NCBI RefSeq assembly: GCF_004345725.1
Contig: NZ_SLXG01000001.1
Span: 186,001-250,000 of the forward strand
Direction of reading: 5' to 3'
From: Crenobacter luteus
GTDB taxonomy: Bacteria > Pseudomonadota > Gammaproteobacteria > Burkholderiales > Chromobacteriaceae
DNA: 64,000 nt
The position numbers were made by a program, and so were the translations under genes. This document shows positions 14,658-17,060 of the stretch, in pieces. The notes under the pieces are model-generated. The model worked only from the letters and a program-made list of their open reading frames with translations. It made no database searches and was not told where the DNA came from. Numbering within the stretch: the first letter of the stretch is position 1; each line of letters opens with the position of its first letter.

Positions 14658-15320
14658 TTGTTCAGCCTGCTTGCCCGCACCGCGCATTTCATCGTGATCG
14701 ACAAGGCGCCGGGCGTCGGTTTCCACCGCGAGGACGACGCGCCGGCGCTGATCGACGCCGTGCGCGACGCCTTGGCCGAGCCGGCGCTGTGGCCGGTGCA
14801 CCGGCTCGACAAGCCGACCTCCGGCCTGATGCTGTTCGCTCGCTCCGAGGCGGCCGCGCGCGCCTTGTCCGACGCGCTGGCCGGGCACCGCCTGCGCAAG
14901 TTCTATCTGGCGCTGTCCGACCGCGCGCCGGCCAAGAAGCAGGGCTGGGTCAAGGGCGACATGGTCAAGGCGCGCGGCGGCGCGTGGCGTCTGGCGCACA
15001 GCGCCGACAAGCCGGCCATCACCCGTTTTTTGTCGTTCTCGCTGGCGCCGCGCCGCCGGCTGTTCCTCCTGGCGCCGTTCACCGGCCGCACCCACCAGCT
15101 GCGCGTCGCGATGAAGAGCGTGTCGGCGCCGATTCTCGGCGACGCGCTGTACGGCGGCACCGCCGCCGATCGCGTCTACCTGCACGCCTACGCGCTGTCG
15201 TTCGACCTGTTCGGCGAGTCGTACGCCTTCGTCTGCCCGCCGAGCGTCGGCGCCGAGTTCCTGACGCCCGAATGCGCGGCAAGCTTGGCCGAGCTCGGCC
15301 AACCCTGGGCGCTACTGTAA
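14658..15320 (+). CDS. RluA-family pseudouridine synthase
   Basis: 220-aa RNA pseudouridine synthase without an S4 domain. The catalytic motif HRLDKPTSGLMLFAR places the active Asp at about residue 51, and the fold continues with RKFYLAL, PFTGRTHQLRVAM and GDALYGG. The exact uridine target (rRNA or tRNA) cannot be read from sequence; it resembles the short single-domain RluA-like branch. Translation appears to start at a TTG (14658) with GAGGAG seven bases upstream. Two copies of the 9-mer meet at the 3' end to make an 18-bp palindrome encoding LAELGQ. Confidence 0.85.
   Translation: MFSLLARTAHFIVIDKAPGVGFHREDDAPALIDAVRDALAEPALWPVHRLDKPTSGLMLFARSEAAARALSDALAGHRLRKFYLALSDRAPAKKQGWVKGDMVKARGGAWRLAHSADKPAITRFLSFSLAPRRRLFLLAPFTGRTHQLRVAMKSVSAPILGDALYGGTAADRVYLHAYALSFDLFGESYAFVCPPSVGAEFLTPECAASLAELGQPWALL
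15285..15302. repeat. Perfect palindrome of two abutting 9-mers
   Basis: TTGGCCGAGCTCGGCCAA, with no spacer, within the last codons of the pseudouridine synthase gene. It shows the paired arrangement of the dispersed word inside coding sequence. Confidence 0.9.
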
Positions 15321-15376
15321 GCGCGCCGCGCGCGTCCCTCTTGTGCCGGCGGCCGCAAAGCCCTAGCCTGTAAAAA

Positions 15377-15400
15377 GGGGCGCGCGTCTGCGCCCCGTTT
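15377..15400 (+). terminator. Weak terminator after the pseudouridine synthase
   Basis: GGGGCG-N8-CGCCCC followed by GTTT. The stem is good but the T-run is short. Confidence 0.5.
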
Positions 15401-15422
15401 GCCAACCCACCGGACACGCAGC

Positions 15423-15518
15423 ATGATCGCTTCCCACCTGCGGACCGGCTCGCCCGGTCTGCCACAAAGCTGGTACACCCTCGACGTCGTTCTCGCCGAC
15501 GACTTCCCGCGCGTCTGA
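15423..15518 (+). CDS. tnaC: TnaC-type tryptophanase leader peptide (31 aa)
   Basis: Small open frame beginning MIASHLRTG, ending 107 bp before tnaA. Its C-terminal part [16 protein letters not shown] matches E. coli TnaC position for position at the key residues. Trp17, Asp21, Asp26 and Pro29 have the spacing of TnaC Trp12, Asp16, Asp21 and Pro24, and an aromatic residue follows the Trp in both. In E. coli tryptophan stalls the ribosome at Pro24, masking a Rho entry site so that tnaA is transcribed. Here two residues (Arg-Val) follow the proline before TGA. The ribosome site is weak. The role is inferred from residue pattern and position. Confidence 0.8.
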
Positions 15519-15625
15519 ATCACGCGGCACTCCGCCGCCCGTCTCCATCCTTATCGAACACCGATCGCCGGCCGCATCCATCGCGCGCCACGGGCGCGTC
15601 CGCGCGTGCCGGCAGGAGCACGACC
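15519..15625 (+). promoter_or_regulatory. Leader spacer with C-rich, G-poor stretch (possible rut site)
   Basis: The spacer between tnaC and tnaA begins with a cytosine-rich stretch (for example CTCCGCCGCCCGTCTCCATC), suited to Rho loading, and has no intrinsic terminator. This fits TnaC/Rho control. The tnaA ribosome site GGCAGGAG lies at its end. Confidence 0.45.
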
Positions 15626-17014
15626 ATGACCCGACGCATTCCCGAGCCGTTCCGCATCAAGATGGTGGAACCGATCCGTCAGACGAGCCACGACGAGCGC
15701 CTGGCGGCGCTGGCGGCCGCCGGCTGGAACCCCTTCCTGTTGCGCGCCGACGACGTCTACATCGACCTTCTGACCGACAGCGGCACCGGCGCGATGAGCG
15801 ACGCCCAATGGGGCGCGCTGTTGACCGGCGACGAGGCCTACGCCGGCAGCCGCAACTTCTACCAGCTGGTCGACGCAGTGCGCGACGTCACCGGCTATCC
15901 GCACGTGATCCCGACCCACCAGGGGCGCGGCGCCGAGCAGATCCTGTTCCCCGAGCTCGTCAAGCGGGTGAAGGGGGACGGGCAGCCGGTGTTCCTGTCC
16001 AACTACCATTTCGATACCACCAAGGCGCACGTCGAGCTCGCCGGCGCGCGCGCGATCAATCTGTTGACGCCGGCGGCGCTCGACACGACGACGCCCCACC
16101 CGTGGAAGGGCAACGTCGACCTCGAAGGCCTGGCCGGCGCGCTCGAGACGCACGGCAAGAACGTCGCGGCGCTGATCCTGACCGTCACCTGCAACAGCGC
16201 CGGCGGCCAGCCGGTATCGCTGGAGAACCTGCAGCGCGCCAGCGCGCTGGCAAAAAAGCACGGCGTGCCGGTGGTGATCGACGCCGCGCGCTTCGCCGAG
16301 AACGCCTGGTTCATCAAACAGCGCGAGCCGGCCTGGCGCGACGCCACGTTGGCCGAGATCGTGCGCGCGCAGTTCGCCTGCGGCGACATGTTCACCATGT
16401 CGGCCAAGAAGGACGGCCTCGTCAACATCGGCGGCCTGTGCGCCTTCAAGGGCGACGAGGAGCTGTTCCGCGCGGTGCAGGTGCGCTGCGTGCCGATGGA
16501 AGGCTTCGTCACCTATGGGGGCCTGGCCGGCCGCGACATGGCGGCGCTGGCGGTGGGGCTGAGGGAAGGGCTCGACGAGGATTATCTGGCCTACCGGATC
16601 GGCCAGGTCGCCTACCTCGGCCAAAGGTTGGCCGACGGCGGTGTGCCGATCCAGACGCCGACCGGCGGCCACGCGGTGTTCGTCGACGCGAAAAAGCTGC
16701 TGCCGCACATTCCGCCCGAGCAGTTCCCGGCGCACGCGCTGGCGTGCGAGCTGTATCTGGAAGGCGGGGTGAGGGCGGTCGAGATCGGCTCGTTGCTGTT
16801 GGGGCGCAATCCGCAGTCCGGCGCGCAGGAGCCATCGCCGTTCGAACTGATGCGGCTGACCATCCCGCGCCGCGTCTATACCAACGACCATATGGACTAC
16901 GTCGCCGACTGCCTGATCGCGGTCAAGGAGCGCGCGGCCACGGTGCGCGGGCTGGCCTTCGACTACGAGCCGCCGGTGCTGCGCCACTTCACCGCGCGGC
17001 TGAAGCCGGCGTGA
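15626..17014 (+). CDS. tnaA: Tryptophanase (tryptophan indole-lyase)
   Basis: PLP-dependent beta-eliminating lyase of 462 aa that splits tryptophan to indole, pyruvate and ammonia. It is closer to TnaA than to tyrosine phenol-lyase, with [40 protein letters not shown] and [13 protein letters not shown]. The PLP lysine is in FTMSAKKDG (Lys261/262). A TnaC-like leader upstream supports the tryptophanase call. No tnaB permease follows; a terminator closes the unit. Copies of the 9-mer occur at 16349 and 16616, the second paired with an 8-base partner. Confidence 0.92.
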
Positions 17015-17034: not shown

Positions 17035-17060
17035 AACGGGGCCGACGGCCCCGTTTTTTT
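17035..17060 (+). terminator. Terminator of tnaA
   Basis: AACGGGGCC-GAC-GGCCCCGTT followed by five or more T residues. The A-rich left side may let it also act on the opposing lipoprotein transcript. Confidence 0.88.

Follow-up and report, generated by a model that had tools for sequence, protein, structure and literature searches.

A probable TnaC leader peptide before tnaA in Crenobacter luteus and its family, and possible anti-Shine-Dalgarno pairing in many TnaC operons

The short open reading frame directly 5' of tnaA, on the same strand, in the 64,000-nt stretch of Crenobacter luteus DNA analyzed here (the window) is very probably this organism's TnaC, and a tryptophan-dependent halt of the ribosome at P29/R30 would shield the spacer that follows from Rho and allow tnaA to be transcribed. 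A TnaC-type leader had been proposed at this place in the first-pass annotation, and the proposal is supported by family-wide conservation, by a match to TIGR02616 and by the ribosomal residues involved in sensing. We regard the leader as an ordinary but well-supported TnaC, reportable for its conservation across the family and its elongation-type tail; the part that could surprise specialists is a covarying anti-Shine-Dalgarno segment across TnaC operons. The genome is 2.86 Mb in 57 contigs and holds a single tryptophanase match, the tnaA of the window, which a 107-nt spacer separates from the leader (Table 1).

Table 1. Features of the tnaC-tnaA region of Crenobacter luteus, in window positions
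Feature	Position	Strand	Basis or remark
RluA-like pseudouridine synthase gene	14658-15320		Upstream of tnaC; TIGR01621
Candidate promoter of the tnaC-tnaA transcript, TTGTGC-17-TAGCCT	15341-15369	+	Same hexamers and 17-nt spacing in congener L082
GC hairpin 3' of the candidate promoter and 5' of the leader	15377-15396	+	Inverted-repeat scan (there minus strand, T tail)
tnaC-type leader ORF	15423-15518	+	ATG at 15423; 31 codons and stop TGA (15516-15518)
Trp17 codon	15471-15473	+	Equals E. coli Trp12; invariant, 44/44 distinct family sequences
Asp21 codon	15483-15485	+	Equals E. coli Asp16; invariant, 44/44
Leu24 codon	15492-15494	+	Equals E. coli Ile19; invariant, 44/44
Asp27-Phe28-Pro29	15501-15509	+	Each 44/44; Pro29 (E. 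coli Pro24) would occupy the P site on arrest
Two-codon tail Arg30-Val31	15510-15515	+	Arg30 is the predicted A-site codon; R 38/44, H 6/44
C-rich, G-poor stretch, candidate Rho loading region	15514-15591	+	Composition
tnaA Shine-Dalgarno AGGAG	15614-15618	+	7 nt 5' of ATG
tnaA, tryptophanase, 462 aa	15626-17014	+	NF009709, 712.6 bits (cut-off 285)

Conservation in close relatives had been set beforehand as the refutation check, and the C-terminal half of the leader is kept at every one of the 49 close tnaA loci in Chromobacteriaceae. A close tnaA is held by 49 of the 61 genomes of the family; leader and gene co-occur in these 49 and are both missing from the same 12. A profile (A1) of 30 leaders, the window's included and 16 of them drawn from the 49 family loci, finds exactly one leader in each tnaA genome (49/49, E 2.7e-12 to 2.8e-8). 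At E≤0.01 it picks up no other in the family, neither in the 12 genomes without a close tnaA nor before genes other than tnaA. This also holds for G039 and G028, which have second tnaA-like copies, and in G041 a second, 49%-identical tnaA-like gene (L130) stands without a leader. Among 94 genomes of the class, matches to the profile other than the window's leader were at E 0.004 or weaker (≤19.2 bits) and were taken as chance. The pattern W...D....D..P no more than four residues from a stop arose in none of 20,000 dinucleotide shuffles of 15321-15625.

The first-pass annotation had matched W17, D21, D26 and P29 to W12, D16, D21 and P24 of E. coli TnaC, and the spacing is indeed identical in the E. 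coli sequence read from NC_000913 (MNILHICVTSKWFNIDNKIVDHRP). W17, D21 and P29 are conserved in this register. That D26 also lines up with E. coli D21 is coincidental, because position 26 varies among Y, D, F, N and C in the family; the invariant acidic residue near the C-terminus is D27. Over 44 distinct C-terminal sequences, W17, D21, L24, D27, F28 and P29 do not vary, and P29 is followed by R in 38 and by H in six. L24, the counterpart of E. coli I19, had been overlooked. Together W17, D21, L24 and P29 give the leader pattern, in which Trp and Asp lie four residues apart, with a hydrophobic residue at +7 and Pro at +12. Entropy at the first, second and third codon positions of the 44 sequences is 0.46, 0.37 and 0.98 bits, and therefore the leader evolves as a coding sequence. 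Two residues after the proline, also noted at the outset, are present as Arg30-Val31, and 48 of the 49 family leaders have a tail of this length (L084 has five). The leader of L128 has no ATG where one is expected and would need GTG or TTG.

Against NCBIfam, the frame matches a single model at E≤1, TIGR02616 (tnaC_leader), and P29 falls on the final position of this model. Its score of 15.4 bits lies under the curated cut-off of 23.55, and E. coli TnaC reaches 44.3 bits. We read the shortfall as a sign of a narrow model, because profile A1, which has the window's sequence among its 30, finds the locus at E 5e-12; the cut-off serves annotation and does not define the family. TIGR02616 matches 23 of the 30 A1 members, the window's included, and Pfam Tna_leader just two at E≤5. 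Judged by its sequence, the leader adds to the TnaC family a member which current models overlook.

The host ribosome appears equipped for this function. Bases 746, 752, 2058, 2059, 2585 and 2609 of the Crenobacter luteus 23S rRNA are those of E. coli (U746, A752, A2058, A2059, U2585 and U2609), only 749, 754 and 2606 differ among 35 compared positions, and the RAKGR stretch of uL22, aligned by eye, is kept with the equivalent of E. coli Lys90. As far as these residues can tell, the tryptophan-sensing pocket is intact. When free tryptophan is high, W17, D21 and L24 of the nascent peptide, together with the tunnel wall, would bind one tryptophan, and the ribosome would halt once P29 has reached the P site, the A site then being occupied by the R30 codon. 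Transfer of the peptide to Arg-tRNA would then be blocked, as in Proteus vulgaris at Lys-33, and not release at the stop codon as in E. coli. The halted ribosome would keep the C-rich spacer closed to Rho, and transcription would continue into tnaA. At low tryptophan, by contrast, translation of the leader would run to completion, the spacer would lie bare and Rho would end the transcript.

The spacer suits such a role. It had been described as C-rich and G-poor, and over its 107 nt plus the ATG the fractions are indeed 0.44 for C and 0.28 for G. Its richest 78-nt stretch starts at 15514, contains 36 C and 16 G, and is equalled or exceeded by only 115 of the 127,846 such stretches on both strands of the window (99.9th percentile); C minus G is 20 here and 12 in the E. 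coli tnaC-tnaA stretch. Going by base composition alone, we favor a Rho-type switch at this locus with modest confidence.

The candidate promoter is absent from the output of a promoter scan, and the motif TA[AG][CT]CT lies 30-80 nt ahead of the leader's start codon in 23 of at most 49 family loci, against two, none and none in three more distal stretches. The single site which the scan did return was rejected, because its -10 element overlaps the leader ATG and the transcript would begin within the leader. The hairpin at 15377-15396 is a candidate for either the terminator of the upstream gene or the 5' end of the leader transcript; congener L082 has a different hairpin at this place, followed by ATTTTCC. 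The leader's own Shine-Dalgarno looks weak (CCACCGGACACGCAGC 5' of the ATG). After tnaA, a hairpin with a run of T lies at 17038-17060, and the transcript probably ends there. A search of 15200-15700 against Rfam gave nothing beyond one chance lncRNA match. As for the pseudouridine synthase gene upstream, in E. coli pseudouridine 746 touches Trp12 of TnaC, according to the accessible part of PMC8429421. A relative of this RluA-family gene precedes tnaA in L082, L090, L006 and L007 (about 2 kb away in the last two), that is, in four of 129 loci, many with short flanks, and the proximity is therefore probably chance synteny.

To place the leader in a wider context, we took the best 80 of 592 tnaA loci from named genomes by likeness to the TnaA of the window. 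A motif scan found a TnaC-type ORF in 58 of them, including further betaproteobacteria, Aeromonas, enterics, Photobacterium, Shewanella, Vibrio and Pseudovibrio. The scan was negative in 22, three of which (L008, L017 and L069) have little or no upstream DNA; loci without a leader in this set include clostridial and other distant ones as well as Mesorhizobium, Variovorax, Sedimenticola, Luteibacter, Legionella and Vibrio ouci. A motif scan of up to 450 nt of upstream DNA detected no leader at any of 37 more distant tnaA-like genes (L136-L172), nearly all from one family, where the match of L136 lacks the first 43 residues; these genes therefore could not serve as an additional test set. Of 107 loci with the leader motif, 99 were left after eight from species of Chromobacteriaceae had been dropped (L002, L003, L004, L006, L007, L010, L011 and L063); with E. 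coli added, 12 of 100 were dropped for want of the proline, which leaves 88 loci in 40 clusters.

The tail of two residues is usual among these proline-type leaders. Two residues follow the proline in 70 of the 88 loci, one in ten, five in four, four in three and none in one (E. coli); by cluster, the numbers are 30 with two, four with one, four with five, one with four and one with none, in a sample that leans toward kin of Crenobacter luteus. Close kin of E. coli are unsampled because the 80 loci were chosen by likeness to the window's TnaA, and for the same reason the frequency of the E. coli form cannot be judged from these counts. In Proteus vulgaris, arrest occurs during elongation at the Lys33 codon, as stated in the available portion of PMC3902921, and together with the two-codon tail this leads us to predict elongation arrest, not a release block, as the likely form in Chromobacteriaceae. 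It suggests too that the stop-codon arrest of E. coli is not the usual form.

Some further loci of the wider set stand out. Nine Vibrio leaders (L035, L039-L041, L044, L047, L048, L050 and L051) keep W-x3-D-x2-L and have Lys at the place of Pro24 (WYNLDYCLSLLSK); in those inspected, one for each cluster and with approximate stop codons, the best complement to the tnaA Shine-Dalgarno starts near +16 to +24, and arrest would accordingly fall a few codons later. In L020, L027 and L037 (two Parendozoicomonas and one Halioglobus MAG), W-x3-D is kept, Leu or Phe takes the place of the proline, and the leaders end exactly two residues past it. Photobacterium alginatilyticum P03D4 has two tnaA-like genes (L079 and L032), and the scan detected a leader only before L032. 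The Pseudovibrio (alphaproteobacterial) loci L054-L056 have a TnaC-type leader about 342 nt 5' of tnaA, and this leader-tnaA unit may have been acquired by horizontal transfer.

The same loci raise the possibility of a second layer of control. In many TnaC operons, that of E. coli included, a segment at about +7 to +18 seems to pair and covary with the Shine-Dalgarno region of tnaA, a reading we hold to be somewhat better than even. Positions are numbered from the start of the proline codon, and the segment comprises the codons of the tail, the stop codon and the beginning of the spacer. The spacers of the 49 family loci fold with a mean z of -2.16 (42 below -1), and the bases just past the leader stop repeatedly pair with the tnaA Shine-Dalgarno; the 8-mer at offset 0 pairs with the last 14 nt before tnaA at a mean of -7.3 kcal/mol, against -2.0 to -4.4 at other offsets. 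True pairing was separated from a mere pyrimidine tract by comparing cognate with cross-cluster pairs. The first such test, on the first 30 nt of the spacer, was not significant (0.44), and six shorter segment sizes in the family gave 0.008, 0.014, 0.042, 0.070, 0.153 and 0.236. Anchored at the stop codon, with 49 clusters, no derangement out of 3000 was as good as the cognate pairing in five of six settings, and one was in the sixth; the values over the six settings were 0 to 0.0053 outside the family (31 clusters) and 0.007 to 0.24 within it (18). With this anchor, cognate pairs gain most over cross-cluster pairs at offsets 0-1 (48 clusters, with 400 derangements at each offset).

Anchored at the proline, the advantage of cognate pairs peaks at +10 and +11 (-1.84 and -1.87 kcal/mol; 40 clusters, 300 derangements each), drops to between -0.1 and -0.3 kcal/mol at +23 to +31, and shows smaller unexplained rises of -0.6 to -0.8 kcal/mol at +35 to +39 and +46. 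In five settings z is -7.3 to -7.8, with 0 of 20,000 derangements as good in each. Letter-shuffled segments give z of -1.2 to -3.3, and therefore base composition explains part of the signal. The 18 family clusters alone give 7 of 20,000, the 22 clusters outside the family (E. coli included) 0 of 20,000, and the ten clusters whose tail is not two residues long 1 of 4000. These figures should be read with the sampling in mind: the proline anchor was picked after E. coli and long-tailed leaders had been inspected, the loci outside the family had no part in the initial idea but influenced the choice of anchor, and clusters were hand-drawn from genus labels and sequence likeness, with statistics that ignore kinship between them.

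In most cases the pairing site tracks the proline rather than the stop. CCUUC at +12 to +16 pairs with GAAGG in E. coli (tail 0), pairing starts from +9 or +10 in the tail-1 leaders of Phytobacter and Morganella, and the helix starts between +7 and +14 in tail-2 leaders. Of the four tail-5 leaders, L032 (Photobacterium) and L052 have the site within the coding tail, where GUCCUCG of L052 pairs with CGAGGAC. In L057, CUUGAUCCUGUUU, stop codon included, pairs with AAAUAGGAUCAAG, and in L096 UGAUGCUCC pairs with GGAGCAUCA.

The leading edge of a ribosome halted at the proline would cover this segment. After six of the 88 loci and three of the 40 clusters without a recognizable Shine-Dalgarno had been dropped, opening the tnaA Shine-Dalgarno costs 5.31 kcal/mol when the RNA is free, 2.90 when it is masked up to +16 and 5.16 when masks are put elsewhere (37 clusters). 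Relief reaches at least 1.4 kcal/mol in 23 of the 37 clusters, and in three with masks elsewhere. With only the footprint masked, in three constructs with none or more of the flanking sequence (81 loci in 36 clusters, E. coli being left out as well), relief of at least 1.4 kcal/mol is seen in 22, 24 and 22 of the 36 clusters. As sequence evidence, the covariation thus suggests translational control of the erm or SecM kind besides Rho. For many TnaC operons other than that of the window, the case for an anti-Shine-Dalgarno masked by the halted ribosome is no weaker than the case for the Rho step. In its most general form, in which TnaC operons, that of E. coli included, are both translational switches and Rho attenuators with a co-evolved anti-Shine-Dalgarno, elongation arrest is common and the stop-codon arrest of E. 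coli is a special case, this is a view toward which we lean only slightly.

The pairing does not extend to all operons. The gain is below 1.4 kcal/mol in 14 of the 37 clusters, among them the family clusters g1, g3a, g3b, g3d, g5, g6 and g7b; no clear pairing is seen in Yersinia, Pseudovibrio, Photorhabdus and several metagenomic loci; and the clusters of tail-5 Prodigiosinella, tail-5 L084 and tail-4 Pseudovibrio do not fit the proline-anchored pairing. This suggests that an anti-Shine-Dalgarno would be a property of many, not all, TnaC operons.

These results bear on the strongest alternative for the locus of the window, namely that +7 to +18 closes the tnaA Shine-Dalgarno there and that the arrested ribosome frees tnaA for translation. 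The cognate advantage across the 40 clusters speaks for it, and we have raised our estimate for the window because masking the footprint lowers the cost for congener L082 in the two longer of its three constructs (from 6.1 to 2.8 and from 6.1 to 2.7 kcal/mol; the shortest goes from 2.8 to 5.0). However, at the window's own locus (L001) the footprint mask changes the cost from 5.2 to 6.6, from 5.8 to 5.5 and from 6.0 to 5.9 kcal/mol in the three constructs, a gain of at most 0.3; the best partner of the tnaA Shine-Dalgarno lies at +61, the best 8-mer within +5 to +13 ranks 12th of 90, and relief appears only when everything upstream is masked (5.8 to 3.3 kcal/mol). The clusters with little gain, the hand-drawn clustering and the outcome of the 30-nt test weigh against it too, and we consider a translational switch unlikely here. 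Because the footprint mask brings this Shine-Dalgarno almost no relief, the Rho-type switch is kept as the likelier one for Crenobacter luteus.

The remaining alternatives concern the signal or the frame itself. An arrest peptide descended from TnaC could now respond to another ligand, as might be thought from F28 in place of E. coli R23 and from the N-terminal half of the leader, which, as the first-pass annotation had stated, has no visible similarity to E. coli TnaC; the retained Trp, Asp and ribosomal pocket and the linked gene, still a tryptophanase, make this very improbable. Attenuation of the trpL kind through charging of tRNA-Trp would fit a leader with a Trp codon before a tryptophan gene. 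Yet there is a single Trp codon, no role would be left for the Asp, Leu, Phe and Pro conserved after it, and a scan of the + strand detected no intrinsic terminator in the leader-tnaA interval, so that we give this reading hardly any weight. A chance ORF has no point in its favor against the family-wide conservation and the shuffles, and can practically be dismissed.

If the leader acts as proposed, tryptophan sensing by a nascent peptide would extend to all 49 of the 61 Chromobacteriaceae genomes that have a close tnaA, with D27 and F28, not D26, named as residues invariant in the family. The 2008 work of Cruz-Vera and Yanofsky is reportedly what others cite for TnaC conservation. Among the literature results listed, no paper dealt with TnaC in Chromobacteriaceae or described a tnaA Shine-Dalgarno concealed by the last part of tnaC, which is weak evidence as few subscription journals were covered. 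Erm leaders provide a precedent for such a switch, in that an arrested ribosome frees a hidden Shine-Dalgarno. The same is described for SecM in the accessible part of PMC3130931. The nearest published finding comes from the part of PMC7186457 available: in E. coli, ribosomal protein L4 binds the spacer between tnaC and tnaA, changes the structure of this spacer and reduces translation of TnaA, and therefore the spacer can act on translation. If the pairing is true, a textbook operon of Rho attenuation may hold a second, translational switch.

Compared with known systems, the leader resembles E. coli TnaC (TIGR02616, PF08053) in its site before tnaA, in W-x3-D-x2-[IL]-x4-P in register, in the C-rich spacer and in the pocket of the host ribosome. 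It differs in its length of 31 residues instead of 24, in DDFP instead of DHRP, in its two codons after the proline, in its score under the TIGR02616 cut-off and in the lack of a tnaB beside tnaA, the one match of the genome to the tryptophan permease model PF03222 being on another contig. F28 occupies the place of E. coli R23; Phe at this position, invariant in Chromobacteriaceae, is common among homologues and sensitizing in E. coli, as far as the portion of PMC8429421 at hand goes. With Proteus vulgaris TnaC, as described in the text available for it, the leader shares the two residues beyond the proline and hence the predicted elongation arrest on a sense codon in the A site, but the A-site residue is Arg or His in Chromobacteriaceae and the motif is DFP, not FFP (the leaders of the Proteus relatives L060 and L062 end in FFPEK and FFPKK). 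Finally, many TnaC operons would be like SecM-secA and Erm in that a halted ribosome exposes the Shine-Dalgarno of the next gene; unlike those systems, the signal of TnaC is free tryptophan, and such a switch is unsupported at the Crenobacter luteus locus.
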